Shown in pieces: positions 2,821 to 35,900 of a stretch of DNA of 64,000 bases. A model generated the notes under the pieces. The model ran no database searches. It had not been told where the DNA came from and worked only from the letters and a program-made list of their open reading frames with translations. The stretch spans positions 1,550,001 through 1,614,000 of the forward strand of contig OZ024928.1 of assembly GCA_964017235.1 (NCBI GenBank). Reading direction: 5' to 3'. Numbering within the stretch: the stretch's first letter is position 1; each line of letters opens with the position of its first letter. The DNA is from Sabellastarte sp. h YS-2021. Its lineage: Eukaryota; Annelida; Polychaeta; Sabellida; Sabellidae. The position numbers and the translations under genes were made by a program.

Positions 2821-2940
2821 CTAGGAATTTCTTTTCTCCCAGAAAATCTTGGACAAATTGTCAGCAGGTTTTTCCACAAACACCCACACAGCACACGACA
2901 GAATCACGGAAATAGTAACAAAGGCACAGGTATCGAACAG
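2821..2940 (-). CDS. exon 16 (terminal) of NRF-6-like gene
   Basis: The acceptor is TTTTCTGTATTTCAG|CTGTTCG, phase 0, then 39 codons and a TAG at 2823-2821. The peptide AFVTISVILSCAVWVFVEKP then LSKIFWEKRNS is the typical last helix of the family, ending in the conserved E-P pair and a basic cytoplasmic tail. The upstream intron starts with a 49-bp tandem array whose unit copies this acceptor and the first exon bases. Confidence 0.8.
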   Translation of the reverse strand: MFDTCAFVTISVILSCAVWVFVEKPADNLSKIFWEKRNS

Positions 2941-5900
2941 CTGAAATACAGAAAATAGGTGTAAAATATATAAAACAGGCATCCAACAGCTGAAATACAG
3001 AAAATAGGTGTAAAATATATAAAACAGGCATCCAACAGCTGAAATACAGAAAATAGGTGTAAAATATATAAAACAGGCATCAAACAGCTGAAATACAGAA
3101 AATAGGTGTAAAATATATAAAACAGGCATCAAACAGCTGAAATACAGAAAATAGGTGTAAAATATATAAAACAGGCATCAAACAGCTGAAATAAACAAAA
3201 CAGGACTCTGTTGAAACAAGAATGAAAAAGAATTGTACTGTGTCACCAGCTTTGGTTAAAGACTGAAGGGAATGAAATTCAAAAGGACTAAAATTATGCT
3301 GGACATAAATAGTCCGCTGACTGGCAGTACTTTTGTAGATCCAGACCATCATTGAGAAGTACCTAGCCATGGTGAGGCTCCAACTTCTTAAAAATATGAC
3401 CTAGATCCAATGTACAGGATATGACAAATGGCAAACATATGAAGTTATCACTTACCAAGTTTTTACTAGATGTCAGCACTCAGTAGGAAATTCAATAAAA
3501 TATCTTTTGGGTAACCTACCATTACACTGCTAGTCATATGCCCATATAAGTTAATGCACTGTGCAACATCGTTCCTGTTTTGTCTGCCTCCTCTGTTCAC
3601 GGAGGAAAGAAGGAACTACTTATATGTGTCAGCTATTTTGTGGGACAGCAAACAAACCAGATCATTGTCTAATCTTGTGGAGTGAAAGGTCACTTAACCC
3701 TACAGATCTTCTTCAGGACTGTTTATATCCACAACCTAAAACCAGAAAAACAGTGTTGCAAAGGCAATAGTTGTCAGGTACTGTCAAAAATCTAATCAGC
3801 TCCAATCTGTGCAGGGGTATGGAATGCATAGAACCCATAAAAATATTTATAAGTCCAAGAAACAGAAAGAAAGTGATGCCGTGGCAACACTTGTTGCAAG
3901 TTATTGCCGAAAACTAATCAGCTCCAATCGATGCAGGGGTATGGAATGCAAAGAACCCATCAAATTATTTATAAGTTCAAGGAACAAAAAAAAGTGTTAC
4001 CATGGCAACACTTGTTGCCATGTACTGTAAAAAAAAACTAGTCAGCTCTCATCCATGCAGGGGTTTGGAATGCAAAGAACCCACAAAAATATTTATACAT
4101 AGGTAAAAGAAACAGAAAGAGGTGTTGCCATGGCAACACTTGTTGCCAGGTATTGTCGAAAAACTAGCTAGCTCCAATCTGTGCTGGGGCTTGGAATGCA
4201 AAGAAGAAACCACAAAAATATTGCCATGACAACAATTGTTGCCAGGTATTGCCAAAAAAACTAAGCAGCTCCAATCCGTGTAGGGGTATTGAATGCAACC
4301 CACAAAAATATTTATGTATAGGTCCAAGAAACAGATAAAGTGTTGCCATGGGGTTTGGAATGCAAAGAACCCATAAAAAGATTTTTAAACCCAAGAAACA
4401 TGAGAAAGTGTTGCCAAGTACCCACAAAATCGCAATTTGAAAAGCAATACAGAAAAACTATTGCCATGGCAACAGCTGTTACCAAAAACTTGCAAAAAAG
4501 CATCATCACTACTCTTGTAGTTCCCCTTGCAAGAAATATATCCTGAAAATACTGGTTAAAATCTTTGCATGGGTTTTATTTATAAACATCCCACCAATTT
4601 AAAAGTATAAAACAACAGGAAAAGGTTGCCATGGCAACAGCTGTTGGCAAATGTTGCCTAAAACCAAATCACAAGTTCCTCTTGTAATGAACATATTTTG
4701 AAAGTTTTGAATAATGTTAAATGCCCACAAAATAAAAGACCAAGAAACAGAAAAAGTGTTGCCATGAAAACACTTGTTGCAGAAATTGCCAAGAAAGCAA
4801 TCACATACAAGTTCTCATGCCATTAAACCTCCATAGTTATATATACATGCAAAATTTTATTGAAATTTCTTAAGTTATCTTCAGTATACGCTATACTATA
4901 CTATATACTAAATAAAAAACTGAAACTCAGCATAATTCTTTTATACATGGGAGTTTAAGGTCATCTTAAAACAGGACACACCTTGAATACCAGTTACAAT
5001 CACATGCCCAATTTGAATTGAATCTGTCAACCCATTTACGAGATACTGTCTGGAAACGGAAAAACTTAAAATCAATATAAGTATGCTACTAGTGGGAGTT
5101 TAAGGTCATCTTAAAATAGAGCAAAACCTGAATACCAGTTACATCCACATAACAAATTTGAATTTAATCCATCATGCCATTTTTGAGATACTGCCTGGAA
5201 AGGAAGTGTGACAACGACACTGACAATGTGTTATTACTGAGAATTTAAGGTCACCTTAATGTGTGGTACTTATCTATGGCCAGTTACATATACATGCAAA
5301 AGTTGAATGAAATTTCTGAAGTTATTTTCAGTATACTCCATGGAAAAAACACCATAAACTGGACATAAGTTTTTTATACCTGGAAGTTTAAGGTCACCTT
5401 AAAATAGGGCACACCTTCAAAACTAGCTACAACCACATGCCAAATTTGAATTGAATCCATTACGCCATTTTTGAGATACTGTCGGGAAACGAAAAAACTT
5501 AAATTGAGTTTAAGTATCTTACTAGTGGGAGTTTAAGGTCACCAAACTATAAAGCACACCCTCAGGACCAACATCCACATGCCAAATTTGAATTAAATCT
5601 GACAAGCCATTTTTGAGATACTGTCCAGAATACAAAGTGTGACGACGACAGCGATGACGGTGAAGCAATCCCTATATGCCACGCAGCATAAATGCTGGTG
5701 ACACAAAAACAGGTGTAATGAAACTGAAACCTACAAAACAGATGTCAAACTGTTGAAACATATAAAAACAAAAAATTGAAACATAGAAAACAGGTGCCAA
5801 TTAGCTAAAACATACAAAACAGGTGTCAAACTGTTAAAACATAGAAAATAGGTGCCAATCACCTGAATAGTACAAACATGTGCCAGACAGCTGAAACACA

Positions 5901-8900
5901 GAAAATATGTGTTAAATTGTTTGAACATAGAAAATGGGTTTGACTTGTCACATTAAAATGCATCCTCAGGGCATATGTTGGCTACATTCAGTCACATCTT
6001 TTAGTCACAGACAAGCCTTGGATCTCTCCTTGCATACATACATGTTAGTTTATGACCCTGTCAGACTGACCCTTAAGTGGACCCATCATACTGCAATGCA
6101 CGGGGTTCAGTTCCATGATTACAAACATTACTAAATTTGTTAACACGGTTAATGGGTCCATGTCGTGAAGATTTAAATGTTAGGATTATCTACACACATA
6201 CCAGATGTAGTGGATGCCAGATGACGGGCCAGTCTGCATCCTGCACATACACAACTCTCTGTAGCACACAGCTCACCAAAAACACACTGTATGACAGGCG
6301 AGATAAAGGCAGCCAAACTGGACTAGATAACAGCTCAGCAGTGACACCTAGGAGTAAAAATACAGAACTACATAAACATCTAACAATGACACCATGAGGT
6401 AGAACACAGATATAAACAAGATCACCAGGTCAGGTTGAAAACTATTGTATTTAGAGTATTTTGTTAAAATATCTTATTCACCTACTTTTGAGTCAGCTAT
6501 AACATACACTAAAACCTCAATTATCCGAACCCCATGGGGGACATACAATTGAATCGGATAATCGAGGGGTTCGAATAGATGAAGGAAACCAAAATTCACC
6601 GTCTATGGGTTACCATGTGGGTGATAATTGAAGGCACTACAGTTTTAGCTTTAAATGTACATGTGGGTAGTCATTGATAAGGCAGTTTAAGATATTTATG
6701 TAATACAATATTACTGACCATCTAATTTCAACAGATTCGCTTCATTTCTATGGATATTGTTATTTTTGTTGAAAATATTACGTGGATCTGAGCTGGGTGT
6801 GTTTGGTTGATACTGCACTCATCATTGATGTTTTATTTTTGATAAATGTCGTCATACATTTTTGTCGTTGGAACACTCCGGGTATTATTAACTGCGAAAT
6901 TCTCACCGAGCATGTCTTTCTATTTGTGTGTGTTTGGTTGGTAATGTATTGTTGACATTTTTTCTTTTAATGCACGTCAGTCTGTGCAGAGCCGACTCCC
7001 GGAGATTATAAATTGGAAATCACAATCGAACATGCATTCAGTAATTGGCGCATTATCAAAGAAGTTGTGTAGTGGGGTGGTGTACATGAATTAATCCCTC
7101 CCCAATTGAAACAATGGCATTAAAGATCAAAGAAGTTAGGCGCTTGTGTTGACTGTATGTTTTATGGTGTACTAGAATTAATGCTTTCCAAGAATGTGTA
7201 AAACCCTGCATTATCGCTCGGGCTAGACCGTGCATTATACATCTATGTAGGGAGACAAGGTTTCGGATCAGTTAATCCAGAGATAGAGGGCCGGTTAATC
7301 AAGGTTCTACTGTAGTAAGATTGCAAACCTGTAGCTCATTGCATAGCTGAGCAACAACTATTTTGAAATGCTCACTGTTGAATAAGTCACTTGTCACTCC
7401 TTTCATCTTCCTTACTATTTCTCCTTGTGCTTTGAACCATTTTTTTTGTTCTCAGATTACTTGCATTTCTCTTTAATATTTGGCGGGAGATAAACACTGC
7501 GACAGTGGTCTTGTTTTATACATGATTTAAATATGTAACTGTCAAATCCCATTAAGCAGAACTTTGTTTTGCAGAATTACCTTTTATCTGATGAGGACTA
7601 TCAGTTTCTAAAATGGCCCGTTCACTGACATTTATTATTATTGATAGATTTCTGTTAAATTTTTTTGACACAGCTATTAGATTCAAATGAACATAAAGCA
7701 GATGTATTTTGATTTCAGGAGTTGCCGCTCACATTGTGGATACACCAGACACAGGTAGATGCAGATGGCCACCATGACACCATAGCAGCTTCTCCAGCAT
7801 GTAAACAGCAGCACATCCCTGAGACTGGCAGCAGACGCCACCTTGCCATCCGTACTGGTGTGAACCAGGTACAGGCAGAGACTGAACACCATGGCTAGAC
7901 AGAACAGCACTCGCTACAAATACACCAACAGCTTCGGCAAGTTAGAAGATACAGGGTTTGTTCAATTGGAAACAATCAGAGCCACCATCAACACTGGTCA
8001 AATTAATGTTATTTCACTTTGGCTTTTACTGACACGGTCAAATTTCAAGTCAGGGGCAGAATGCAATATTAATACTTGTTTCACAGCACGGATCCTGAAA
8101 CTTTCTGGTGGTCCTTGAAGTACAAAATTAAATTTAAAACATCCCAACATGCAAGTGTACTTCTATTACTGTAATTCACATATTATCATAATAATATTGG
8201 TCTTGACAAGACATCTGAACATATTTTTTAAAAATAAAATAATAATAAAATAAAGTATTTCTTGACGTCTCAATATTAAATCCTTTTCAGCCTTCAAGTC
8301 AAAAAGTCTGCTAAAACCTTTGAGGGTTGGAAGTTAACTTTTTTCAGCACTTGCCAGGAAGGGCAAGTGACATCAAGATTAATCTTCCTGCACAAATTCC
8401 ACTTGCCCTGACTGGAAATTCACTTGCTGTGGGAAAGCTGGCAAACGTTAACGTCCAGACCTGCCTTTACCTGTGAGCCTCCGTGTCCTGACTACTTGCA
8501 TCCGATCCTGTCAGTGGTAACTGTGTACTACATATGTTATAGGTCATAACACCTACAAATATGGTCGTACAACTCATCTTGTCTACTTTTTACATGGCTA
8601 ATCTTCCTGTGAAAAGAGATCTAAGATATCTAGTCCAATGAAAAGATAGGTTTCATGAGTCTATTATCTTCCTTGCTTTCCAGGACTGATTGTGACTTTG
8701 GGTTACAATTTATTTCTCTGAATCATGGCTGTCAGGACCAGGTCATACACTTATTGTTCCAGTCAGATGACTTATATTTTCAGTCTTAATGCAATATAAG
8801 TGGAACAGATTACTTACATTGTTCCTTTTTCCCCCTCAATTGGTTAGAGCAGGACCAGTTCATTAAAAAAAGGCCACGTCTTACTATTGGTCTTGTAAGT

Positions 8901-11900
8901 TGAGCAGTGGCATTAGTGTTGATCACTTATGTGTTTGTCACTCACATTTCCCATAATTCACAAAATAAAGATGAAGAGTTCACAGAATTCTAATTTAATG
9001 ATCAAAGATCATGTTACAGCCCTGGAAACAAATTTCAGCTATGGAGTGGTTCAATGTTCAACAAATAAAAGTGGGTTTTGTGTAAACGTTCAGACAAATA
9101 CTATTAAAAAAGACCACAAAGGAGTTAAAAACTCAGGATTTTCAAAACTAAATAGAAAGCAAATTTTTGGATTAGAGAGGCTGTATTTTATTCATGGGAG
9201 TACCTACCCGGCAAGGTCTGAGGTACCTTCTGTGGTACACTAGTCCCAGGAGTACCCCACTGGTGTAAGAGTTGATGTGTTCTGGTAATGAGTACATCAT
9301 CCAGGTAGCATTCCAAGTGTTCACACTCCTACAAAGGTGGCCTGAGTACAGTAAATAACATCATAAATTAGGCCTGAGTAAAGTAATAAAGTAGACCAAA
9401 CCACATCAACTTTTCAACATTTATATTCATCTTTTGCTAATTTGTTGTAAGTTAGTGTCTAAGACACATCTTATGATGCAAACATTTCAATTTCCATCAA
9501 TATATATAAAGAGGAAGATGACGTGGTTACTCTGTCCTGTGAGATGCCCAGTATAACCTCTAGACCTTACATGCTGGGAAACTCCCACGAGTATCTCATA
9601 AAACCATCCTTGGTTTGAGCCACTAAAACCCTGGATGTAAAATCATTCACCACACACACCAAGCCCTGAGACACTCACTTAGACACATACTATTACAACA
9701 ACATGGAGTTTAGTAGTAGCCAAATGAGATCAAAGCGTATACAGCATTATTTCTGAAAGTCAACTCAGTGTTTGATATAGTATCAGGAATTGTGTCTCTG
9801 TCCCACCTTGCTGACTCACTCTACATGCTGACTTACTTGTAGTAAGCAAGAAGACTGACTAGAAGAAAACACAGCACAGGAAGTGAAGTGATCGCCAATA
9901 CACCGCCTCGTCTGCTTCTGTGATAAACCATACAATGGATATTTAACACAGTTATATGCATCACATAATTCTTGTACTTCCAGAGATCTCATGAATGTGC
10001 AGACTTTAAATCACACTAAGATACATGCAAACACTTTGTAACATTTTAGAAAGACAAAAACAATGGCTGTTACCAATTGTGGATCACAAATCAAGAACAC
10101 AAAATCAGCATCAGAGATGCCCATACCCCACAGCCCAGGAAAACAAGTTTTGACACCATGAGATATAGAAGAAGTGAAAGAGAAAGATCAGGAGACTCTC
10201 AGAGAAAATAATGTTAGTTATATAAAGATCCAAGTAATGTTTAAGTAGAGAAAATAACTTCTAAGAAAAAGAAAATGTATGTAAAGATAAAGTATTAAAA
10301 TAAGTCAGTTCAATGGCAAGATGACAGCAGTAATCGGTATACTAAAATTATGAAGCTGTAAAATTTATTAACAAGAGAATAACTGTCAATGGAAATATCA
10401 CAAATATGTAAAAGTACATATAATAATCAGTTGCAGCAATCCATATATCTCTGTCATAAGAGAAACATGTCTTAAATATGGCAGGTGAACACACTTTGGC
10501 AGAGCAAAAGTTAAAGGTCACACCATGATGCACACCTACACGCCCTAACCAATATCCCTACCAAGTGTCAACACTCTACACCTTACGAAATCCAAGAAAT
10601 AGCCCGGACAAGATTTTCAAGCTCATGGTCACTACGACAAGGTCAAAGGCAAAATGAAGATCCCACCATGATGTTGCACCCCTACAAACCCAAAGCAATG
10701 TCTCTACCTAGTATCAACTTCCTACACTTAATTTTTTCCACATATATCCTGGACAAAATTTTAAAGGTCAAGGTCACTACGGCAAGATCAAAAGTCAAAT
10801 CAAGGTCACACCATGACATTGCACACATACAACCCCAAACCAATGTCCCTACCAAGTATCAACTTTTTACACCTTACAGTTTCCGAGATATAGCCCTGGC
10901 AGGATTTTATAGATCAAGGTCACTACGGCAAGGTTAAAGGTCAAGTCAAGGTCACACCATGATGTTGCACACCTACAACCCCCAACCAATGTCACTACCA
11001 AATATCAAACTTCCTACACCTTATAGTTTCTGAGATACAACCCGTACAAACTTTTTCCCACCGGCCGCCCCCCAACCCGCTAGCCCATCCGGACACCATG
11101 GGTGAAAACAATACCATGACAGTCTTTAAGGGTTGTGAATTAAAAACCAGAAGTGAAACCAAAAAACAATTTAACAAGACTATTTCCCGAGAATATATTG
11201 ACTTTAAAAATAACATTTTACTAAAATGAACTATGAAAACTGCATTAGTTAGGCATTTCCACATCCAAATTTGTTGTCATTTTTTCTTTGTTATAAAGCC
11301 TAGCTTTCTGATGTAATACTGTTTATACAAGCAATGTTGCTTTGGTTTGCACTCACTGACCTCCTGTAGAGTAGAGCCAGCCAGGGAACCAGTAAGAAGA
11401 GCTGTGTGTCTGCCCCCAGGTACCAGGCTTGTGGAACGCACTGGACAACAGAAATAAAACAGCGAGAGTTCAACGAGAGTGTCATACCAGACTCTGTAAT
11501 GTGTGATATGGTAACGTAACACATACCTTGTCATAAAACACAACATAGAAAACTGACAGTTGTCCCTGACAACACTGACACATTTCTATATTCAATTTGA
11601 TATATTTACCTTAGAGTCTGTCAACTGATGGAGATTAAGTGCTTTAAAAGTCCATATTAGATTGGATTAGGTTTTATCATACCATACAAGGTGCAGGAAG
11701 TGGCAGCTAGCAGAAATAACTGTTTTCAGGAATTTCCTAGTACAGATTGTATTTTTTCTTGCCCAAATCAAGGCACTGATTTCACATAGAAAATATACTA
11801 TCGCCCCTAAAAAGCATCTTAAAATTACTTGGCAAACTCATTTTGGTGTAGGTCTGTAACTTGTACTTGTGTCAATTCAACGCATGTTTCTATGAAGAGA

Positions 11901-14900
11901 AATCCACGCTAATTTGCAATTTGCTAAGTGGAGATATGGATTTTGTGTTGAAGTTGTGTCAAGTTACAATCACACGCAGTATCACTCAGAATGTGTAAGT
12001 ACACAATGGGAAAACTTCCTGCATGAGATATACAGAAAAAAAAATATCATGATTGAAGATAACAATATTATACCAGTGTGTAGTACGAGTGTTATACTGT
12101 CTAATGAGGGATGTTTTACTTTTATTATCCACCATTTTGTATGTTTTATGACTTAAATAAATCCATATTTAAAGAAAGACTGTGAAAAAGGCTGTCATAT
12201 ATACAGGAGCACCGGTGAATATAAAACCTCGTCTTTAACTTGCAATTTCTCAGCCATTTCTGTTTGGATATTTATGCAACAAACACCAGCAGAAGTGCTA
12301 TAAAAAGACCTTTCTAATGATATATAATACATATTTGTAGATTACATAGTTTTCAAGATACATGTAAAAAAGCAGAAGTTATTGACACTAATTATCCATG
12401 GTCAGATGGCACCATTGTATACAAAAAGAATATATCCCGCTGTGTATATCCCCCTGTACAAGTTAAATACAGTCCATGGTGGATGATAAATAACTGGCAA
12501 TCTGATGTCATATTGTGTATCCCATGCTAGATGTTGCTTTTTTTTACTCATTTCGCATCCAGTAAAGGGTCTCAGATGGAGTTTTCACTTACAAATAAGA
12601 CTGTCATAAGAGTGATTTAAGTTTTTCACTGTTTGACAGTGCTTATTTGAAAACGTCATTAGCTTTTGATCGACAGGTTACATCTCGGCCCAGTATATTT
12701 ATCAGGGGTCGGTTTCACAAAAGGACTATGCCTGGACCTAGACTTAAAGTTAAGACTTTTGCCTTAAACTCAGGTTGAGTCTATGGTCTCAGACTAAGAG
12801 GGTTTCACAAAGCTGCTAAGTCTAAGCTTTGGCTAAGTCTACCTAGGAGTGGGCTTAACTTTTGTAAAGACTTAAATATGGCTGCCATTTATTTTTATCA
12901 ATTAAAATTTGAAATGCCCGGAAATAAGAAATAAATATAGACAGCACCTCACTAAACTAGTCTTTTGACATAGTTACGTGGTTATAGGGTTTTCCATTGA
13001 AAACCAGCATTTTTCCAGAGATAGTCTCCAGTTGTATGTACAAACCAAACAAGGGGGAAAGTGGGATAAAGTTGATGTATACATGTATTTTTATTCCAAG
13101 CTGTGATGTCATAATGCAAAGAATGAGAACACAGGTGTAATATGATATCACTGATATATCACTGATGTAGGTAAAAAGTGGACACTAGCGTATCTAGTTC
13201 TACCAAAATCTAGAAACCTTTCTCCAAGAAAAAACTCCAAATCAACCACATTTATGATTAGTCAAGACACAACTGAACAGCTTAAAATATTTGAGGTGAA
13301 TTTTGTTTTGGACTGAAAGCTATCTGATAGTAATTTTATAAAGCACTCGAAAGGAGTATTCATCATATGAACATCACAAAACAAATGTAACCATTCCATA
13401 GCACGCCATCAGTATCCTCAGTCAAAGAAGATCATGAAGATCTGATAGTACAAGTTCTGGTCACACTAATGTTGCTTTCAATAACAAACCTGGCAATGTT
13501 AGAGATACTGGTAAGCCTTAACTATCATCAGTGACTTAAGTCTTGACAACGCAAGACACATTGTTTTGAGAGAAAAGTCTTTGGACATACAGCCGGGCAA
13601 AGGAATGAGGTTTTTATTAGTGAAGTTTGTCACATGAGGGTTTTAATACATAACTATGAGATCAGTTTGACACACATCCCCTGCTGAATGTGATGACACT
13701 AGCTTGCATGAAGATCTTTGATGCACAAGTAGGGGTCTGAACCCAGTAAGTGACCTGTACTGACTTAAGTATTTATATATATACTGGTTTAAGTGAGTTT
13801 TTTATAATTGCATACATGGGTTCAAATCCAGTGAAAGTGATAAGCATTGGTTAATGTGAATGTTTCACACTATGATACATTGGTTATACTGAAAGCTTTA
13901 CATACTCTGTAAACTGGTGTTTGTGAAGGCTTTAGAAACTCACGTGTATGGGTTCAAGTCCAGTAGTGGCTATATGCAGGTTGAAGGTAAAGGAGAGGTG
14001 TGAGGGGAGGGAGGTCATACAGCGGGACTGTTGTGTGTGTCCATACAGAGGGGTGTCACTCCAATAAGGGAACAGGTATGTCTGAGACAGGACCACAAAG
14101 TAGTAGACTGGCGCCAACCTGAAACACAGTGTCATATAATAAGTAACTGACACTGGGGTCAACCTGAAACACAGTGTCATATAATGAGTAACTGACACTG
14201 GGGTCAACCTGAAACACAAGGTCATACAATAAGTAACTGACACTGGGGTCAACCTGAAACACAGGGTCATACAATAAGTAACTCATAATGGGGTCAACCT
14301 GAAACACAGGGTCATATAATATGTAACAGACACTGGGGCCAACCTGAAACACAGTGTCATATAATAAGTAACTGACACTGGGGCCAACCTGAAACACAGG
14401 GTCATATAATATGTAACTGACACTGGGGCCAACCTGAAACACAGGGTCATACAATAAGTAACTGACACTGGGGCCAACCTGAAACACAGGGTCATATAAT
14501 ATGTAACAGACACTGGGGCCAACCTGAAACACAGTGTCATATAATAAGTAACTGACACTGGGGCCAACCTGAAACACAGGGTCATATAATATGTAACTGA
14601 CACTGGGGCCAACCTGAAACACAGGGTCATACAATAAGTAACTGACACTGGGGCCAACCTGAAACACAGGGTCATACAGTAAGTAACTGACACTGGGGCC
14701 AACCTGAAACACAGGGTCATATAATATGTAACAGACACTGGGGCCAACCTGAAACACAGGGTCATATAATAAGTAACTGACACTGGCGCCAACCTGAAAC
14801 ACAGGGTCATATAATATGTAACTGACACTAGTGCCAACCTGAAACACAGGGTCATATAATAAGTAACTGACACTTGGGCAAACCTGAAACACAGGGTCAT

Positions 14901-17900
14901 ATAATATGTAACTGACACTAGTGCCAACCTGAAACACAGGATCATATAATAAGTAACTGACACTGGGGCCAACCGAAAACACAAAGTCATATAATAAGTA
15001 ACTGACACTGGGGCCAACCTGAAACACAGGGTCATACAATTAGTAATTGACACTGGGGCCAACCTGAAACACAGGGTCATACAGTAAGTAACTGACACTG
15101 GGGCCAACCTGAAACACAGGGTCATACAATATGTAACTGACACTGGGGTCAACCTGAAACACAGGGTCAAATATAAGTAACTGACACAGGGGTCAACCTG
15201 AAACACAGTGTGATATATTATGTAACTGACACTAGAGCCAACCTGAAACACTGGGTCATATAATAAGTAACTGACACTTGGGCAAACCTGAAACACAGGG
15301 TCATACAATAAGTAACTGACACTGGGGGCAACCTGAAACACAGGGTCATACAGTAAGTAACTGACACTTGGGCAAACCTGAAACACAGGGTCATACAATG
15401 AGTAACTGACATGGGTCAACCTGAAACACAGGGTCATACAATTAGTAACTGACATGGGTCAACCTGAAACACAGGGTCATACAGTAAGTAACTGACACTG
15501 GGGTCAACCTGAAACACAGGGTCATACAATAAGTAACTGACACTGGGGTCAACCTGAAACACAGGGTCATACAATTAGTAACTGACATTGGGTCAACCTG
15601 AAACACAGGGTCATACAGTAAGTAACTGACACTGAGGTCAACCTGAAACACAGGGTCATACAATTAGTAACTGACACTGGGTCAACCTGAAACACAGGGT
15701 CATACAGTAAGTAACTGACACTGGGGCAAACCTGAAACACAGGGTCATGTAATATGTAACTGACACTAGTGCCAACCTGAAACACAGGGTCATATAATAG
15801 GTAACTGACACTTGGGCAAACCTGAAACACAGGGTCATACAGTAAGTAACTGACACTGGGGTCAACCTGAAACACAGGGTCATACAATAAGTAACTGACA
15901 CTGGGGTCAACCTGAAACACAAGGTCATACAATAAGTAACTGACACTGGGGCCAACCTGAAACACAGGGTCATATAATAAGTAACTGACACTGTGACCAA
16001 CCTGAAACACAAGGTCATGCAATAAGTAACTGACACTGGGGCCAACCTGAAACACATCCCCGACCTCCGTGAATGAAAAGGAGGTCATATTACTCACTAA
16101 AGGTCTCAGTAAAGGCTTAACTTCTGTCAAAAAGAAAACCAACTTAAGCCTGAGATTTGACTAAGTCCTTCGGTGAATATAACTAAAAATAAAAACCTAG
16201 CAAGGTACTGATAGTACAACATATCACTAATCAGCAAAATACAGCAGTGTCAAAAGTAAATAAAAAAACTGGAGAAGTCTGTATTTCCCTGCCAACTCAT
16301 CGTCGCAAATAAACAGCGACCAGAGTTGTCCAACCTGCTATTATCTGGAATCCTAAGTGTAAGTGGAAAAGTAATGGAAAAAAATGCACCTACCTCCACA
16401 GTCTTTTGAGATAGGTTGAGCAAATGTAGCGCATTGGACTCTTAACTGAGTCTACTGCAGATAAAGCCTGTATTGTAGCCAGCATAGCACTGAAATAAAA
16501 ATGAAAAAACAGGAATTAGATAAAACAGGTCTGTCAGTCAAATAATACGTCCAAGACCTTCTGGAGGACACAAACTCCGATTATGCCCTCATGTGTGGGG
16601 ATTTTAATGTAGTCTTAAATCCAGATTTGGACTCCTGCAATTATAAGCACATTACTAACCGTAGGGCAAGACAAATAGTACTAAACATGATGGTTGATTG
16701 TTATTTATGTGATGTATACCGCCAGTTTAATCCGGACCGAAGGCGTTTCACATGGAGACGGAAAACCCAGTGAAATAAGCTAGGCTCGACTACTTTTTAG
16801 CCTTGTCAAATATGCTTGACATAATTAAAAATAGCATCAGAGATGCCCGTACCCCACAGCCTGGGAAAAGAGATTCAACACCATGAGATATAGAAGTAGT
16901 GAAACAGTACACAGATTGGGATACTTTCAGAGCAGTGTCAGTGTCCAAATAATGTTTAAGTAGAGAAAATAACATCTAAGAGAAAGAAATTGCATATAAA
17001 GAATAAGTATTAAAACAATACAATTCAGTAAACTAAAAATTATGAAGCTTTAAGACTTCTCCCATTTTGATTTTGATTTGTATGGTCGAATTATGGTTTG
17101 GATGTTTTGAATATTACCCATACATACAGATGTAGCAATACATGCTTTTATGTGGAATTGGGGCAAAACCTGTGGCTCACTTGATGCAATACCATCTGTT
17201 ACAATGGGAAGCTGCAAAAGTAAAACAGTTAATGACTTCTAATATGACTTTAACAGTGCTTAATCTACACCAAAAGAAACCCAAAGGTGCAACAATCAAG
17301 ATTCAAGTACAAAGATATAAGAGAGATATAAGAGAGATAAATAGTATCAGATATCCTCGTAGAGACATAAAATAGCATCAGATATGCAAGATCAAAGGTC
17401 AAATCCAGATCGCACCATGACTTTGCACACATATAACCCTTGACCAACGCCCTACCAAATATCAACTTCCTACACCTTATGGTTTCCAAAATATATCCCA
17501 GACAAGGCATTATAGGTCAAGGTCACTACGGCAAGGTCAAAGGTCAAATCAAGGTCACACCATGACGTTTTACATCTACACACCCTAGCCAATGTCCCTA
17601 CCAAGTATCAACATCCTACACCTTACAGTTTCCGAGATATAACCCGGATAAGGTTTTATAGGTCAAGGTCACTACGGCAAGGTCAAAGGTCAAATCAAGC
17701 TCAGACCATGATGTTGAACACCTACACCTCCTAACCAATGTCCCTACCAAGTATCAACTTCCTACACATTACAGTTCCTGAGATACAGCCCGGAGAAGCT
17801 TTTTCCCACCGCCCACCCACCCACCCATTGGGACACCATGGGTGAAAACAATACCCCGACAGGGCTGTGGGGTAAAAATTGTGATATAAGCTTCTCAAGT

Positions 17901-20900
17901 TACAGATTGGATCACTCTATACAACATTTGGATATTATACTCAACAATTTCAATCGTGGAAAGGGACTGTGGAAATTTAACAATAGTCTTTTAGAAAATA
18001 TAGATTTCCTAACAATGATCAATTCTGTCATTGATGAAGAAAAAGTTAAATATGCACTTCCAGTCTATGATCTTAAATTTTTGGAAAAAAACATGTTCTT
18101 CAATCTCTATGACAATAGAGCCTGATGCATTTCTTGAAGTACTTTTCCTTAGAATTTGTGGGGAAACTATTAAATTTACGTCTACCTTGAAAAGGAAACA
18201 ACTAAATATGGAAAAGAATGTAATAGCTGATATAAAAGCCCTAGAATCTGTACCTCAGCTGAATTCCATAAATTCTGAACTCCTGTTAGACAAAAAAGCA
18301 GAGCTAGAGCAGTTAAGAAAGGTTAAAATGAAAGGTCAATCAGTTAGAGCACGATTGCAATGGTTACAAGAAGAAAAGCATTCTAAATACTTTTGCAACC
18401 TTGAAAATAAAAACTACATTGAAAAAAACATAAGAAAACTTAAGCTTAGTAATGGTTCTATTGTCACCAAACAAGAAGAGGTGCTGGACCACATAAGATC
18501 GTTCTAGGAGAATCTTTTCAAAAATCGAGATGATAATTTATTAGATATGGATTTTAAAAAAATGGGGTTGGAACAATGGAGGCCTTTAGAGGAAATGGGA
18601 ACTTTAATAACAGTTGAGGAACTTGGAGTAGTACTAAAGAGAATGAAATCAAATAAGACCCCAGGTATAGATGGGATTACCTCAAAATTTTTGAAAGTCT
18701 TTTGGGGCAAAATTAAATACTTTGTAATGGAAGCCATTAACTGTGGCTTTCATAAAGGTAGTTTATCTACTTCAATGCACCAATGCATAATAACTTGTTT
18801 ACCAAAACCTAATAAAGATTGCTCATTCATTAAGAACTGGCGGCCAATCTCCTTGCTATGTGTGGTGTATAAATTAGCTTCGGGTGTTATAGCAGACAGA
18901 TTAAAGCCTTCTTTGAACCAAGTTATTTCAAAATGCCAAACAGGTTCTTTTAAAGGAAGACAAATTAACGACACGACAAGACTGGTGTATGATCTATTAC
19001 ACGTAACTGAAACTAAAGGAATCCCAGGTTTATTAATGCTAATAGATTTTGAAAAGGCCTTTGATTCGTTGTCATGGAATTTCCTTTATAAAGCATTGGC
19101 CTTCTTTGGGTATAGTAAAAATTTGATCAATCGGATAAAAGTCTTTAATAAAGATATTAAAGCTTATGTTTTACAATGCGGGGTACTTTCAAAGGGGTTA
19201 CCAATAACCAGAGGGTGTCGTCAGGGAGATCCTATATCTCCCTACCTGTTCCTAATTGGTGCAGAAATACTATCACTTTTGATTAGATTGAACCCCCAGA
19301 TTGTTGGTATATTAATCGATGGGATAGAATTTAAGTCAACACAGTTCGCAGATGACACAACATTGATACTGGATGGCAGTCAGCATTCCTTACAGGCAGC
19401 ACTAAATATACTGGAAATATTTGGTAATATGTCTGGTCTTCATATGAATAAGGACAAAACAAAGATGATTTGGATTGGCAGGAAAAGATTTTGTCGAGAG
19501 AAGCTTATTACCTCTGCTAATCTTAATTGGGATGACACTGATTTTATGTTGTTGGGCTTAAGGTTCTCCACAGATTTTAATAAAATTCCAGAGATGAATT
19601 ATCATCAAACACTTCAAAATATTAAACGAGATATAAGAAAATGGAGCAGTCGCTATTTAAGTCCCTTTGGAAGAATAACTGTGGTAAAGACAAATATTTT
19701 GTCAAAATGTATTCATCTATTTTCCTCACTACCAAGATCAGATAATTTTCAAAATCAATTAAACCAAATATTATTTAAATTTGTTTGGGATGGTAAGCCT
19801 GACAAAATAAAAAGAACAACTATATGTCATGACTATTTGGAAGGCGGTCTAAAAATTTATAAATATAAAAAAGTTTGAGCAGGCCTTAAAAGTGAGTTGG
19901 GTAAGAACATTTTTATCCAGTTCTGATTCACAGTGGTACAGACTCTTTAAGAAATCATATGGAAATCCTGATAAAATTTTGAGCTTTGAGGAAGACTTTA
20001 GTATTTCTGAAAAATATGACAAACCCTTTTTGGCATAATGTGATAAATAACTGGATAGATATACATCATCAAATTCCTATAAGGACAAATAATGAAATTC
20101 TTCAAACCTGTATTTGGTACAACTGTCAGATCTTTAAAAGCCCAACATTTTCCCCAGATTGGTTTAAACAAGGAATCCACTTAGTTAGAGATATCAGTAA
20201 TACAGATGGTGAACTGTTAAAGTAGAAGATATAAACCTAAAATTTAATACTAATTTAAACATCTTAAATTATTATACAGTGTATCAGAGTGTGAAAAAAT
20301 TTATTGCAAAACATAAAAACCCGAGAAACCATGGATTTTTTAATCTCCTTCTTGCCCACTCCACTTAAAATATGTATTAGAAACCAAAAAACCCTGCAAA
20401 ATTTTCTACAGTATTTTAAACAGCACACAGGAAAAAGAGACGCCATTGTGTGAATTTATATGGAATGAATTTTTGTTATCAAGATATCCCGATACTGAAT
20501 TGAGAGATAAATGGGCTATGATTTACAAAATATGCTTTAAAACCATTCAAGATAATAACGTAATATGGTTCCAATACCGCATCCTCTATAAAATTTTGGG
20601 AACTAAGGAATATTTAAAAAGGATAAATCTATCTCTTGAAAGCGACTGTAATCTTTGCAAAAGAAATATTCAAGTGTGAACCATCTGTTTGCTGAATGTC
20701 CTAGTGTTGTCCACCTGTGGGAAATTTAGGTAAATGGATACTGCTGTTTTCACCTGTGAATTTGTGCTTTCAAGGAAACAAGAATTCATTAGAATTGTAC
20801 TGTGTCACCAGCTTTGGTTAAAGACTGAAGCGGATGAAATTTGAAAAGACACAAATTATGCTGGATAGACAAAAATAGTTAGCAGACTAGCAGTAGTTTT

Positions 20901-26900: not shown

Positions 26901-29900
26901 TCAGGACAAATAAGTTTAAAATCTAATTTTAGACCCGAATCCCTTTTCTGACAAGACTTCACAAAAGAGACTGAGACTTCACAAATCTTTGCAAAATACC
27001 AAATAAATGCCAATAGATATTGAAAAAAATTGAGAAAAGAAACATTTTAAAAATATGTCCAAATAAGCGCTTCTTATGTCAATTAAAAAATTAAAACTAT
27101 GATAGATGCAACTATCAATCAGATCTCACAGTCCATGACATTTTCCAGGGAGGAGATTTTGAACATCTCTACAAAACTTCAAACACAACAAATTAAAAAT
27201 CTGACGAAATTTGAAAATTTTAATTACTTAAATGTAGCTTTTATAAGCTACAAGCTTACCATGTGGGACTGAATGCTAAATCAGGAGGCTGCAGGACTCC
27301 AGCCAACGACCAAGCAAAATGGACGTTTGGATTTGGCCGAGTCCGTGGTTTAGTATGTACCATAGCACTGTCGTTTGGTGATTTGTTCTTCTTCTCTCGT
27401 GGTAAATTTAGCCCACACCCCCTCAGCTGAAATATAGCGGGGAGGCAGGGTGGGACTTTCCTCAGTCCCACATGATAAGCTTGTAGCTTTTTAAAGCTAC
27501 ATTTAAGTAATTAAAATTTTTAATTTTATTGTGCTACAATAGCTTACCATGTGGGACTGAATGTTGAATTCAACCGCCCGGTGGCGGGATTACAGCTGAG
27601 ACTGGAAGAATATTGTCCATTTTTCTTGAATTTAGAATAAAATATACCAAAAAATTGACAAAATACCAGTCTAAGTCCCAGTTACAGAGCCCCAGTTCTA
27701 AAATCGGGTCTGTAAGTAGCCAAAAACCAAAGTTTAATGAATGACAGTACGGGTACTGTCTGGATGTTTTGATAGAAGAGAGTGCAGCCGTGCTCACTCA
27801 AGATAGTAGCCGCTAAAGGCATCACTGCTATAATACAGCCCTAGGCTTGAATCTCATCAATTTTGCCACCCTAAATATGAGATTATGGTACACTGTTAAA
27901 CACTAAATATTACTAAATACATTATACAGTTAAAAATATAAGAGACCTTACCATCTGGAGAGGTAACCAATACCTGGACCCTGGGATAGACTCCTGAAGA
28001 CTTGGCTGCAGCGGGTGTGCCCCCCCTTCTTTTCTTCCCGAAGATGAGTATGCTGAGGGGATGGGTCTAGGACTTGTTGTGCCGCTACTACTGGTCCCAG
28101 ATACATATTGTTGTCGTTTTCTGACCAAGTAAGGTCTTTTAGGTAAAAATTTGAAAATGTGTTGTGAGCTTTCCAATGAAACGCTTGCATGATTTGGTCG
28201 ACCGATACCCCACCGTAAAAGGCCTTAGAGGCCGCGAAGACCCTAATGTCATGCACTTTGACTTGGACCAGGTCCAAGGCTTGTTGATCTGATTGTTTAT
28301 AGCAAAGTAGGATAGTTGGTTTAGCCAGGAAGAGAGTGTAGCGGGTCTGATGTCTGAGGTATGTCGTTTCTTAAAGGAGATGAAAAAAGGGATCGAGACC
28401 CTCTTAGGTCTTTGGTTCGATCCAAATAATACCTCAGGGCCCGTACCAGACACAAGGTCCTGTCTTCCTTGAATTGTCTATCTGCAATGGTAGTTAGAGC
28501 AGGAATAGTCACCAGAGACACACTTTGAGAACCTTTTCTTGCTAGTTCAGAGCATCTATGTCCCAAGCATTTTGGTCTGGGACTGGAGACACGTATAGTG
28601 GAACTTTGTGGTTCAGGCGAGTGGCAAAAAGATCTACGTGAGGAGTGAACCACTTGAGACTGATCTGTTTGAACACCTGGAGATTCAGTGACCATTCTGT
28701 TGAATGGACTTGGTTCGACCTGGACTGAAGGTCGGCCATCACATTCAGACACCCTGGAATGTGTCTGGCTTTTAAGGTTATCTGGTAATGATGGCACCAG
28801 GTCATGATCTCCCACAGGAGAGCGTACATCTCCGCTGAGTGGGTTCCTCCTTGTTTATTTATGTAGGCTACTACTGTTAAGTTGTCTGTAGCAACCAACA
28901 CTGTTTGGCTTGACACTGGTCCTTGAACCTTTGAAGGGCCAGAGAAACCACCTTCAGCTCTAGAACATTTATGTGTAGCCTTATTCCCCGGTCTGACCAC
29001 AGACCCTTTGTAGAGGTTTGCTCTAAGTGAGTGCCCCAGCCTTCGTTTGAAGCGTCTGTAAAGAGTTGGATACTGTGGTCTTTGGGATGAAGGGCTGTGC
29101 CTTTCATCATGTTTGTGGGATTCTGCCACCATTCTAGGTGTGCTGAAATGCTTTCTGTCTAAGGGAGGAGGCTGTCCAACGACTGAGGACATCTCCAGTG
29201 CTCCTTGAGGTGAAACTGAAAGGGCCTCATGTGAAGGTGTCCCTCTGAGACCATTTTCTCCATTGAGGCAAGCAACCCAATTAGCGACATCAAACATCTT
29301 GAAGTCAAAACATGTTTGACTTGAGTCGTAGGAACAAATCCTGAAGTTTGAGCCATCTCTCTTGAGTGGGTTTTACAAGGGCTGAATCTAGATGGTATCC
29401 GTAGCCCACGAACGAAAACACTTGAGTAGGTTTTAGTTTGGACTTCTCCTGATTTATTATCCACCCTAGGGACAGGGTTAGGTCTACCACTGTCTGAGTG
29501 TTTATTTGTGCTTCTTCCTGAGACTGGGCCCTATCAGCCAGTCGTCCAGGTACTGGTGAAGTCTGATTCCCCTTGTCAGGGATATCAGCTTCACTTCTTT
29601 TACAATTATTGTAAACACCTGAGGGACTGTGGCCAGCCCGAAGGGGAGGGAGGTGAACTGAAACACTTGTGACCTGTGGCAAAACCTTAGGTACTTCCTT
29701 GAGTTTTGGGAGACTGCATAACCCGAGAGATTTAGATTTTTCACCCTTTCTATTGCGTTCCTTGACAGTAAAGACTGGATACAAGAGGTCAGAGCTTGTT
29801 CTTTGAAGGGCCTTATAACCTGATAGAATCAGAGGAGCTCTGACCAAATTTGGTTTTGAGATGAATGGAAGAACGTAACTATTGGGGGTAATGTTTAACA

Positions 29901-32900
29901 CGTTGTGTGAACATTTGTTTGTGAGCCAGTCTTTTCTGAAAGAACGGAGGCGACCTCCTACTGGTGGACTGAGGGAGGCTTGAAAGGAGTCATAGGGGGA
30001 GGGGTTTCCATGCCCTCGTCCCCTTTAATGGGGTCGAAAACGACCCCTGAAGCCTCTTAAGATTGATTTCCCCCTACCTGAGGAAAACGATTGGTTACTG
30101 CTTTGAGAGGAATTTGCCCCCATAGGAACACAAAAGGGGTATTGAGATAGGGTCTAAAAACCCTGTGGGTCTATGGGGTGCCTTTAAAGGAGGAAGTCTT
30201 CTCCATCCTTGACTATTTGTGACTTGAAGAGGGGAGAAGGCCAAAAAGGGCGAATTCCTGAGTTCTTGATATCTAGAATCCCTTAGATGTGATTGAAGGA
30301 GGGTCTTTGCCCCGCATCTTAGCAGGCCAGAGTTTGCCCATTGTATACAATTCCCTCTGGAGGATATGGGCTACAGATTGTTTAGGCAGGATAAGGATTA
30401 GGCACCCTTCTGAATCTGGCTTTTAACCCTCTAAGGGCGGCCTTAATAGTGTGACACTTTACCAAAGAAGTTTTACAGGAGGAAGTAGTCTTGTAAAAGT
30501 AGCTGTGGGATGAAGGTAGAGAGGTTCTGCCTAGTTTGGTGCTCAAGTTCCTTAGAACTTGTAGGAGAACTTGCCCATAGGGGCTCCAGAGGGTTTAGGA
30601 GAGATACAGATCTTGGCAAAATCTATATTGAGCTCCTGAAGATTGTCCTCAAAATTGCAAATTTTAATTAGTAAATTAAATTTTTATTAGTTAATACCTT
30701 ACCTACCAGACGATAGCTATAGCCCGGCGCCAGCCGGTCCCGCCAAACGAAAGAAAAAGACGTCCCGGGTTTCACCCCCGGCAGGACCGGCACACTACAA
30801 TCCACTCGCCAGGTGGCCTAGTTCCTGCCTCACTCGCCAGAGGGACGTGACGTCATAGCATCTTTTTCGTCCCTAAGATTGAATGATGAAGGCTGGAAGC
30901 GGGGAAGGCCGGGTGGGAATTTCCCGTCTGGTAGGTAAGGTATTAACTAATAAAAATTTAATTTACTAATTAAAATTTGCAATTTCATTGCGTTAATACA
31001 TCTTACCTACCAGACGATAGCTAGAATAACTACCCAGTGGAAGGAGGGCAGCCTTCTGAGGATTGGGGAAACTCTTATATTATACCTAGGTGTGAGGTTC
31101 TAGTCCTTTGAGGAGACATGTTAGTCTCAAGGGTAACTAGACCCACCTGCCCCCCCCCCCTTTTTGACTGCTCTGAGGGGAGGAAGAGAGTAAGAGTTCA
31201 AGTCAATGATTCCCACGGTTAACCTGGAAGAGTAGGGAAAGTCCTATACCCAGAGGATTACTCTGAAGTAAAAGACTTTGAGAAGCCAAGGCCTAGGCTA
31301 AAAGTGAGCCTACACCTAAAACTAACTAGTATGTACACTATATATAATTATATACAAAGAAGCTTAGGGGACTAGTGGTGGATTTGTTGGGCAGCCACCA
31401 CATGACCCAAGTGAAAAAGCTCCTTATCTGCCCAGGCAACATCCTTAAGGTAAAACTGTGTAAAGGTGTTGTGGGACTTCCAGTGGCATGCTGCTAGGAT
31501 CTGGTCCAGAGATATGCCACCTTGAAAGGCTTTGGAGGCCGCAAAGGCCCTAACATCATGGGCCTTAACCTGATGTAAGGTCAAGGAATCTTGGTCAGAG
31601 AGATCATAACACAACACTACTGTTTGTTTGATCCAGGACGAGATAGTGGCAGGAGAGATGTCCTTGTTAAAACCCTGTTTGAAAGAAACAAAAACTAACT
31701 CCTTTCCCGTTCTTAGGTCCTGCGTTTTGTCCAGGTAGTAGCGAAGAGCCCGAATGGGGCAAAGGGATCTGTCTTCCTTTAAAGACTTATCCAGAGTGGG
31801 GGCTAAGGCTGGAATGACCACAGGGGCCACGCACTCTGGTATCTCTTTTGCCAAGTGATTTTTCGCCAAGAAGCTTGGTGAAGGGTAGAGGGAAACTTTG
31901 GACCAGTCAGCTTGGTGTCTGATATTTTTGTTTAACCAAGCGTGAATCTCACTCCTGCGTTTTCCTGAAGCCAGGGCTAGGAGAAAAACAGTTTTGAAAG
32001 TAAGGTGCTTCAGAGAAGCCTTTCTGAGTGGTTCAAAAGGCGCTTTTGTAAGCTGGTGTAAAACCAGGGAGAGGTTCCAAGCAGGAACCCCCCGGCGCCC
32101 TTTGGGTCTATCTCTGTGAAAACTGTCTAACAGTCTAGTCAAATTTTCATCCTTGCCGACATTAACCGAGGTATTTCCCAGTTTGTCTGCAATGGCTGAC
32201 CTGTAACCATCAATAGTGCTGGGCTGGAGATTCTTCTCCTGGAAAAGGTGCAGGAGGAAATCTGCTATTTGTTTTATAGATGGGTTCCTGAAGTCCACCT
32301 GACTTGTTTCACACCATCTGACAAAAACGGCCCACTTCGCTTCGTAGACTGTTCTGGTTGAACGTCTTTGAGGCGCCTCAATTCTTGACGCCACTGGGCT
32401 AGAGAACCCCTGCTCCTTGATTGTCTGGGCTCTAGGAGCCAGGCATGGAGATTTAGGTTTCTCAGATCCCTGTGACGTGCCTTGTTGAAAGGTTGGGTCA
32501 CTAGATCTGGGTGGTGTGGAAGACAAAGAGGAACCCTCGCAGATAGTTCCACTAGGTCCCAAAACCAAGGCATGTTGGGCCATCCCGGGGCAATCAGGAT
32601 TGCTCTGCGATACCAGTGATCTGACAGCTTGCTGACCACCTTCCCCATCAGAGACACTGGGGGGAAGAGGTACATGTCCAGGTCCTCCCAGGACAATGTC
32701 AGAGCATCCACTGACCAGGCCTTTGGGTCTGGAATTGGGGACACAAATTGAACTAGCTTGCAGTTGTACCTTGTTGCAAACATGTCCACTCGGGGATAAT
32801 GCCAGGTTTGACAAAGGAGGTCGAAGGTCTCTTGATGGAGGGACCACTCCGTCTGAATGACCTGCCTTTGGCGAGACAATTTGTCTGCAATTACATTCAG

Positions 32901-35900
32901 ACGGCCTGGAATGTGCCTGGCCTTCAGTACTATTTGATTGAGGCTGCACCAACATAGGAGCCGCCAAAGAAGGGCACAGAGTGAGCCTGACCTCATACCT
33001 CCTTCCTTGTTGATGTATGCCACAACCGTGGTGTTGTCTGTGGCAATCAGGACGACCTTTCCTTGCACTAAATGTTGGAATCTTTTTAGTGCTAACAACA
33101 CGGCTTTTAGTTCTAAGAAGTTTATGTGCAACTTGCTTTCGGGCACTGACCAAGTACCGCTTGCTGTGAAGTCGCCTAAGTGAGCACCCCAGCCTTCTTT
33201 TGAGGCGTCTGTAAAGATTTGAACTGCGTGTCGCAGGGGGTGTAAGGGCTGACCCTTTAGGACATTTTCCTCTTGGGTCCACCACTGCAGGTACTGATAT
33301 AGAGACCTCGGAATTGGGATCTCCTTTTCCAGAGATTCTGGGACTCTCCAGTGTTTCTTGAGGTGCCACTGAATAGGTCTCATGTGCAGTCTGCCTAGGG
33401 TCACCTGTTTTTCTGTCGCAGTGAGAAGACCTATAAGAGACATGAAAGTTCTCACTCGGCAAGATCTGTTCTGTAAAAGCACTGTTATTTTCTGTTGAAG
33501 GGTTTCCCAACGATTTTGAGTAGGCCTGACTACTCCGTTGAGTAGGTCGTACTGGTAGCCTACGAAGTCGAAGACTTGTTGGGGTTCCAGTTCTGATTTT
33601 TGCATGTTTACCATCCAGCCCAACTCCTGGCAGAGGGCTAGGAGGGATTGGGTTCCCTGGTGGCAAGATTCTTTGGTAGGGGCTCGAATCAACCAGTCGT
33701 CTAGGTACTGGTGGATTCTTATACCCTGTGACTGAGCCATTAACTTGACCTCTTTGACCACACCAGTGAACTCCATGGGAGCTGTTGACAGGCCAAAGGG
33801 AAGTGCCCGAAACTGGTACGACTGGTTCTGAAAGTGGAACCTGAGGAATTTTCGGGATGTGTAGTGAATTGGGATGTGGAAGTAGGCGTCGCTGAAGTCT
33901 AGCGATGTCACCCACTCCTCTTGTTGTAGAGAGGTCCAGATTGTCTCTGGAGTCTCCATTTTGAATGTTTTTACGCATAAAAACTGATTTAGAGTACTGA
34001 GATCCAAGATTGGCCGCCACTTGTGGTTCGGCTTTGGGACAATGAACAGTCTGTTGAAAAAGGCTAGTGAGGTTTGAACCCTGACCCTCTCTACTGCCTT
34101 TTTCTCGATCAGAGCTTGTACAGCTGCTTGCAAGTGGGAGTCTCTGATGGGGTTTGCATAGCCACTTACTATCAGGGGATCCCTTACTAAGGGAGGTCTT
34201 ACTTTGAAGGGAAGAACATAACCCTCCTTTAATATGGACACTACTTTTGGGTTTGCACCCATGTGAGCCCATATTTCCCAAAAACTCTGAAGACGTCCCC
34301 CCACTGGTTGGACACTTGCAACATTGGGGACATTTGGAACATTTGGAGCAGAAACAAAGTGACCGACAAAAGAAGCACTTTTCACACACTTTATTTGACT
34401 TTTGATCTTTAATTTTGGTCTTACGTCTTTCTTTTGCGACTGCCACCTTGTTACAGTAGGTACACGACATACAACATGATAGGAAACATTTGTTGGAACA
34501 GATACAAAAGAGTTTCTTGTTATGACACTTTGTACAGAACTGACTGGCCGGGCCACCGGCACCGGACTTGACTTGCAGTAATTGTCATTTATACTGTGTC
34601 TTCTCATGAGCCATCTTGGTACCACGTCCGGGTTGACCACCCCGGCCTCTGCCCCGGCCTCTATTGCGGGAACCAAACGCTTTCCAAGCTGGTAGTTCCT
34701 TTCCGGCTTGAGAAGTTGTTTTAGCAGTGTCTTGAGGTTTCCAACCAGTACTGTAGGGTTGGTATCTCTGTTTTCTGCCTCTACCGGCGAACCCCCCGCG
34801 GCCCGGGCCGGGCTGGGAAGTACGTCGGAAAGCTTCTAATTGGTTTATTTCATCCTCAGCTTTTCTAATAGCAGCATCTGGAAATAGCCCATATCCATTC
34901 AGGGGGCAATTTCTCAAGGAATTGAAAGTATCTGGTTTAATCCCCGGTTTCACAGCTTCCAAGTATGAATCCCTACGGAGTAGGGTCAAATTTGCCATCT
35001 GCACAAATGTAAAGTCTGCCAAATGTTGTAGAGATTTACCCATGGCGAAACTGACATTCTGGTTAAATGAAGATAAATACAAAAGTTCATCCAATGCACC
35101 TTGAGCTTTGACAGAAGACTTGCCTTTCTTAAGTTCACTTTGTAAAATATGCAATTGTTCTTGGAAGGCATCCTGTATTTTGGTAATACAGCGATTAAAC
35201 CCCGCTGACTGGTTGCAAATATATGAAGACTCTTTTGCTGCTTTCTCCCACTTACGCATAGTGTCTTGTGATAGTGGGCGGGATGGAGGCTGAGGAGATG
35301 CAGAAGATATGGTTGAAATCCTGGGGAATGAACTATTTATCTTCGCCGCATCATTTGGCCAAGAATTCACTGATTTACCCGGCCTAGTTGGATCTGTAGG
35401 CTCCGCCGGGTGTATCCCATACCATCTGCTCTGGGATTTGGGGGGTCTGAGGAATTGGTCCACATGCAGGCCACCTGGATCACTAGATTTTGAAGGATAA
35501 CCTTCTATCAGTACAAGGTTTAGAGTCTCTAGTTTTCGGCACAACCAATCTTCCGGAGGAAGATCCACAGAAATCTTGCCCACAGGTTGAGAACGGTGAC
35601 CTGCCCAAGGATTATCAGTGCGGGATTGAGGAGAAAACTCCAGGTCAGGAATGTGTGTCCATCCCATGAACGCGCGGACGCCTCTCACAGTCTCGCGGTA
35701 ATTTTGATCTTCACTGAGGACCCGGTCCGGGTCTGAGGTTTCTAAGTCTGGGGATTCCTCTGCGTCAGATAACTCACCCTCTTCAAATGTTTCCTGAGGA
35801 TTGACATCGCGGAAGGTGACCGGCCCGGAGCCGGAAGAAGGTTGTTGAAATGCAGCTTGAGAGGAAGCAGACATAGCAGCTGACGACACAGTAGCCACCG

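Follow-up and report, generated by a model that had tools for sequence, protein, structure and literature searches.

The gene described here, a long minus-strand gene of the sabellid annelid Sabellastarte sp. h YS-2021, carries a 45-bp minisatellite at one of its 3' splice sites, such that a copy of the acceptor of exon 9 stands in nearly every repeat unit. We analyzed 64,000 nucleotides (nt) of this genome (the window; assembly GCA_964017235.1, contig OZ024928.1, positions 1,550,001 to 1,614,000), in which the host gene spans at least 50.6 kb down to 2.8 kb, its exon limits being inferred from sequence, not RNA. COI from another contig of the assembly is closest to annelids: among the 120 rows listed, the first 21 carry annelid names, with a best identity of 78% (scored over the 7,999 candidates sharing the most words), which places the animal in Lophotrochozoa and probably in Annelida. 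The minisatellite (array 1) is probably a "mirage," the name given in amphioxus to minisatellites lying over an exon-intron boundary: a segment spanning the acceptor was tandemly duplicated, then lengthened and homogenized, while splicing still goes mostly to position 14118 and minor isoforms are possible. The case is made by the anatomy of the array, by the finding of no other genomic copy, by a recent four-unit duplication, and by a second array in the same gene that has different exon bases. The features concerned are as follows.

16394 to 16489, minus strand: exon 8 (96 nt), AMLATIQALSAVDSVKSPMRYICSTYLKRLW; donor GTAGGT
14021 to 14118, minus strand: exon 9 (98 nt), (R)LAPVYYFVVLSQTYLFPYWSDTPLYGHTQQSR; donor GTATGACC
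14107 to 16056, minus strand: array 1, a 45-bp minisatellite with 44 acceptor copies (Tandem Repeats Finder [TRF] and motif scan)
14298 to 14657, minus strand: perfect tandem duplication of four units (14298 to 14477 identical to 14478 to 14657)
14119 to 14253, minus strand: the three exon-nearest units (acceptors 14163, 14208, and 14253), adding 15, 30, and 45 residues in frame with no stop

An earlier note, made from the letters of this DNA, had described a 45-bp minisatellite built from the exon 9 3' splice site, with about 43 copies filling nearly the whole intron and with exons 8 and 9 joining in phase, all of which we can confirm. TRF delimits array 1 at 14107 to 16056 (period 45, 43.5 copies, 91% matches), and a motif scan tolerating up to 3 substitutions places the first exon-like base of 44 acceptor copies at positions from 16046 down to 14118. 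The array occupies approximately 85% of the 2,275-nt intron (16393 to 14119). As read from the sequence, exon 8 (16489 to 16394) and exon 9 (14118 to 14021) join as ...YLKRLW-R-LAPVYYF; exon 9 begins directly after TGTGTTTCAG and ends at the donor GTATGA. In each unit, 33 nt come from the end of the intron and 12 nt from the start of exon 9; the exon-side edge of the array lies 12 nt into the exon 9 coding sequence (14118 to 14107) and the distal edge about 10 nt ahead of the first acceptor. The junction TTTCAG/GTT (the slash marks the splice site) is retained in 43 of the 44 copies, the exception, at 14973, reading TTTTCG, without AG. Most units (38/43) are 45 nt long, with three of 44 nt and two of 43 nt. 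The exon bases GTTGGC(C/G)CCAGT given in the earlier note are present, but they are not invariant, the fifth base being A in 15 of 43 units and the fourth T in 5 of 43. One mid-array unit, at 14793, has GTTGGCGCCAGT, which is the same as the exon 9 start and unlike the adjacent units.

Genome searches, covering 1.786 Gb in 647 contigs (the window lies on a contig of 190.5 Mb), found the exact 16-mer TGTGTTTCAGGTTGGC 20 times in array 1 and twice elsewhere. A 180-bp query from the array returned at least 12 matches; among the matches listed, all 12 fall inside array 1, one of them being the perfect neighboring copy. Internally, the array matches itself exactly over 202 bp at an offset of 180, and the corresponding four-unit duplication is a recent expansion. 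Since the matches are confined to the array and this long repeat is exact, array 1 appears to be young or still changing.

Several further features of the units were examined. The two nearest exon 9 (14119 to 14207, minus strand) read GACACTG where most read GACCCTG, a variant that two other units share and that completes an 8-bp stem between successive acceptors; as a candidate RNA hairpin, the structure proved weak (z of -1.91, -0.70, and -1.02). No clear further decayed units were found beside the array, the observed score being reached by 107 of 200 shuffles on the distal flank and by 22 of 200 on the exon 9 side. A derivation of the spacers from downstream exon sequence was rejected (fit reached by 255/500 and 138/500 target shuffles).

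The anatomy is that of the mirages described in amphioxus: the unit is of minisatellite size, it joins intron end to exon start, and splice signals are retained. The amphioxus report describes such arrays in Adh3 (units of 10 to 72 bp) and in the globin genes BflGb6 and BflGb9 (PMC3087553), and further cases, in TnC and PGBD5, are mentioned in PMC3902484. The closest counterpart is BflGb6, in which the 3' end of an intron is repeated together with the start of exon 2 in units of 150 to 160 bp, with 6 or 3 copies depending on haplotype, homogenization within the cluster, and reverse transcription-PCR suggesting normal splicing (PMC3087553). Like BflGb6, array 1 duplicates an intron 3' end with an exon start; its copy number is far above those of the amphioxus globins. 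The arrays of Sabellastarte also differ in their dimensions (45 bp by 43 and 49 bp by about 6), in lying at two acceptors of one gene, and in their lophotrochozoan host.

The second array, absent from the earlier note, lies over the acceptor of the last exon, and the relevant features of that intron are the following.

2821 to 2940, minus strand: last exon, LFDTCAFVTISVILSCAVWVFVEKPADNLSKIFWEKRNS, then stop
2926 to 3204, minus strand: array 2, a 49-bp minisatellite over the last-exon acceptor (acceptors 2940, 2989, 3038, 3087, 3136, and 3185)
5706 to 5939, minus strand: a decayed relative of array 2 (29-bp unit), within the last intron
6202 to 6347, minus strand: exon preceding the last intron; donor GTATGTGTG

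The unit of array 2 (49 bp by 5.7 copies in TRF) comprises 34 nt of intron and 15 nt of exon. The last exon starts at 2940 after CTGTATTTCAG; five more acceptors follow upstream at 49-nt intervals (2989 to 3185), each with CTGTTNGATGCCTGT, which matches the opening 15 bases of the exon apart from small changes, and the splice signals are kept in all six. An exact genome search with the array 2 pattern gave five matches, all within the array. Of the upstream acceptors, 3087 alone keeps the frame, adding 147 nt (49 residues, open). Because their exon bases differ, arrays 1 and 2 are taken to have been seeded separately.

Approximately 2.5 kb upstream of array 2, in the same intron, the 29-bp array resembles it at about 70% over 141 nt (E values of 7e-13 and 3e-11), with a score of 57 against a shuffle maximum of 32 (reached by 0/200 shuffles). 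The stretch between the two, which resembles 20.8 to 25.0 kb of the window, we take to be a dispersed repeat, and the acceptor-derived array of the last intron would then be older than the insertion of that repeat. Directly beside array 2 no clear further decayed units were seen (score reached by 162/200 shuffles on the distal flank and 5/200 on the last-exon side).

Within 4 kb on either side, two of the 10 acceptor positions tested in the host gene (those of arrays 1 and 2) had copies spanning the junction that scored above every shuffle; none of the 9 donor positions did. Two of the acceptors were set about 2 nt off, and the position at 9.9 kb is uncertain. The acceptor at 9.3 kb has a copy of its intron side alone (score of 27, shuffle maximum of 24), which does not cross the junction. 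Across 20 genome stretches of 10 kb (18 spaced and 2 flanking the window), none of 12 minisatellite consensus sequences contained TTTCAG on either strand, whereas 2 of the 9 in the window did, namely, arrays 1 and 2. A 40-bp array at 48251 to 48448 (minus strand) has a unit holding GGTGTAAGTACAG, which is donor-like; no exon was identified beside it, and its frame matched no family.

By the favored account, array 1 would have originated by tandem duplication of a short segment over the exon 9 3' splice site and would later have been lengthened and homogenized, several units at a time, through unequal exchange or slippage. The exon-nearest acceptor, 14118, is probably still the main one, as would be expected if, by the established principle of exon definition, the exon 9 donor is matched to a nearby acceptor. 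The more distant copies would be out of reach or would yield transcripts containing stops. From the next three acceptors, exon 9 would measure 143, 188, and 233 nt, within ordinary exon size, and minor isoforms longer by 15, 30, or 45 residues may arise. We also count the amphioxus precedent in favor of this account, the anatomy there being the same and regular splicing being described as undisturbed (PMC3087553 and PMC3902484).

When exon 8 was joined to each of the 44 acceptors, 14118 gave the expected protein, and only 14163, 14208, and 14253 added open in-frame residues; the next unit, at 14298, holds a TGA. In all, 40 of the 43 upstream copies (among them the one at 14973 that lacks AG) run into a stop before exon 9 ends. 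The frame scan thus agrees with the earlier note, which had predicted the three extensions, the TGA in the fourth unit, and a unit open in the exon 9 frame. The unit itself reads open in two of its three frames, though (open reading frames of 391 and 327 amino acids), so the openness is a property of the unit rather than a sign of selection, and finding three open copies is unremarkable.

Some observations weigh against the favored account. By a crude pyrimidine score, 14118 (1.3) ranks among the lowest of the copies: of the 42 others with an intact AG, 40 equal or exceed it. The score thus fails to tell the exon 9 acceptor apart from its copies, which makes their use plausible. The sequence near the AG cannot account for a preference for 14118, although distance to the exon 9 donor could, via exon definition. 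Against the Pfam model Acyl_transf_3, the joined exons score 28.9 bits without an insert, 29.9 with 15 added residues, and 20.2 with 45; that is, the protein with 15 extra residues scores as well as the one without, a gain that may merely reflect filling of the gap left by a missing exon. As the comparison is confounded by at least one exon absent from the gene model, it cannot settle which acceptor is used. Finally, the 12-bp acceptor core GTGTTTCAG/GTT carries 2 of 39 distinct variant states and is the least varied 12-bp block of the unit (P of 0.0006 under random placement for this preset block and 0.016 for any block). Such constancy relative to the rest of the unit is unexpected under simple neutral turnover, but the test treats variants as independent, an assumption that tandem turnover violates, and the P values are accordingly only a hint.

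These points bear most directly on an explanation that we consider unlikely, in which the acceptor copies serve in splicing and are maintained by selection, the in-frame copies giving length isoforms and the distal ones stop-containing transcripts, with copy number tuning output. The near-universal TTTCAG/GTT, the low variation of the core at its preset-block P value, copies that score like the exon 9 site, and three open, in-frame copies nearest the exon are all as it would predict. The weaker P value for any block and the independence assumption speak against it, as do the openness expected of the unit anyway, the 40 of 43 copies that lead to stops, and the published mirages, for which normal splicing is reported. 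Its strongest form has the array as a working, length-variable splicing device, with the core under selection, the exon-nearest copies placing 15-residue modules before a membrane helix, and copy number shifting the isoform mix between individuals, and with acceptors in this lineage perhaps growing arrays repeatedly; to this we give little credence.

Neither do we expect that the repeat came first, an ordinary intronic minisatellite or dispersed repeat having reached the acceptor and overwritten the first exon bases. The related 29-bp array upstream of array 2 is in keeping with such an origin, as is a short, weak similarity between the 29-bp and 45-bp units (score of 19, reached by 3/200 shuffles), which may reflect only a common branch-site and acceptor pattern; but among the genome matches listed there are no arrays of the array 1 or array 2 unit elsewhere. 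Also against it, the exon part of array 1 encodes L-A-P-V, which in the acyltransferase family would come after a conserved-looking R.

It is very unlikely that array 1 represents intron creation in progress, with the duplicated AGGT letting a copy become a new exon/intron boundary. Usual animal introns are longer than 45 nt, and in every copy AG is followed by GTTG.. or GTTT.., which is not a donor consensus. AG/GT does occur in 43 of 44 units, and the amphioxus authors propose such a role for mirages, citing the Rogers model of intron gain by tandem duplication containing AGGT (PMC3087553). Array 1 resembles that model in having AG/GT in its units but departs from it in that the exon 8 donor stands apart from the array and the units have no donor consensus. 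We give the least weight of all to an assembly artifact or wrong copy number: assemblies often get the copy number of tandem arrays wrong, but these units differ at many columns, the contigs are chromosome-sized, and array 2 has the same anatomy, which limits the doubt to the exact count.

In the human gene IFI6 (6-16/G1P3; Turri et al. 1995), too, a minisatellite repeats one splice site from unit to unit, and its units are reported to be used as splice donors in transcripts (as cited in PMC4526556). The copies in Sabellastarte are predicted acceptors, and the bases after AG (GTTGGC, GTTGAC, GTTTGC, and similar, read by eye without a donor score) are not GTRAGT. An earthworm metallothionein paper describes intronic minisatellites and, in its accessible portion, reports no splice-junction units (PMC12783039). 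Our literature search, with most subscription journals outside its reach, returned acceptor-spanning minisatellites in lancelets only, besides the donor type of IFI6. The arrangement itself is already known from lancelets; what is notable here is the copy number, the phylum, and the pair in one gene. That one lophotrochozoan gene has two such arrays suggests that the acceptor type is not confined to lancelets, and the pair may be relevant to the growth of introns and exons. With some forty near-identical acceptors ahead of a single exon, the gene is a natural test of how the spliceosome picks among equal 3' splice sites and of exon definition.

The host gene likely encodes an NRF-6-type acyltransferase, and two of its upstream exons enter into this assignment.

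50505 to 50577, minus strand: exon matching the last part of an NRF N-terminal domain (Pfam PF20146), below the curated cutoff
42202 to 42387, minus strand: exon placed where the acyltransferase domain begins, the match appearing only once it is joined to the other exons

The 28.9-bit match of the joined exons to Acyl_transf_3 (PF01757; E of 7.5e-7) falls just below the curated cutoff of 31, and that of the 50.5-kb exon to PF20146 (E of 0.0014, 19.5 bits) falls below the cutoff of 27. None of the eight exons scanned singly matched Acyl_transf_3, nor did the portion from exon 8 onward scanned alone. Protein searches with the host-gene product found no homologue, and at least one exon between the 42.2-kb exon and exon 8 (16.5 kb) was looked for and not found, leaving the model incomplete there. 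Given the sub-cutoff scores, the lack of a homologue, and the missing exon, the family name is likely but unproven; that the product is likely a membrane protein, as the earlier note had it, we count among the supported claims. A genome search with the joined protein gave nine matches at E values up to 1, all within the host gene. The family model found no paralogues in the genome but also missed the host gene itself, and this result carries little weight for split exons.

Other elements occupy introns of the gene. By eye, a large DIRS-like element lies at 28000 to 36600 (minus strand) inside a large intron, with open frames of 1070, 853, and 667 amino acids and with reverse transcriptase/RNase H-like and recombinase-like parts. 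On the opposite strand, inside another intron, a reverse-transcriptase-like open frame of 456 amino acids at 17700 to 19900 (plus strand) looks like a long interspersed nuclear element by eye. Tandem repeats of 143 to 146 bp occur at six places in the window (10514 to 11037, 17386 to 17803, 46308 to 46766, 57736 to 58754, 62087 to 62790, and 63523 to 64000), and their consensus units, judged by eye, are alike.

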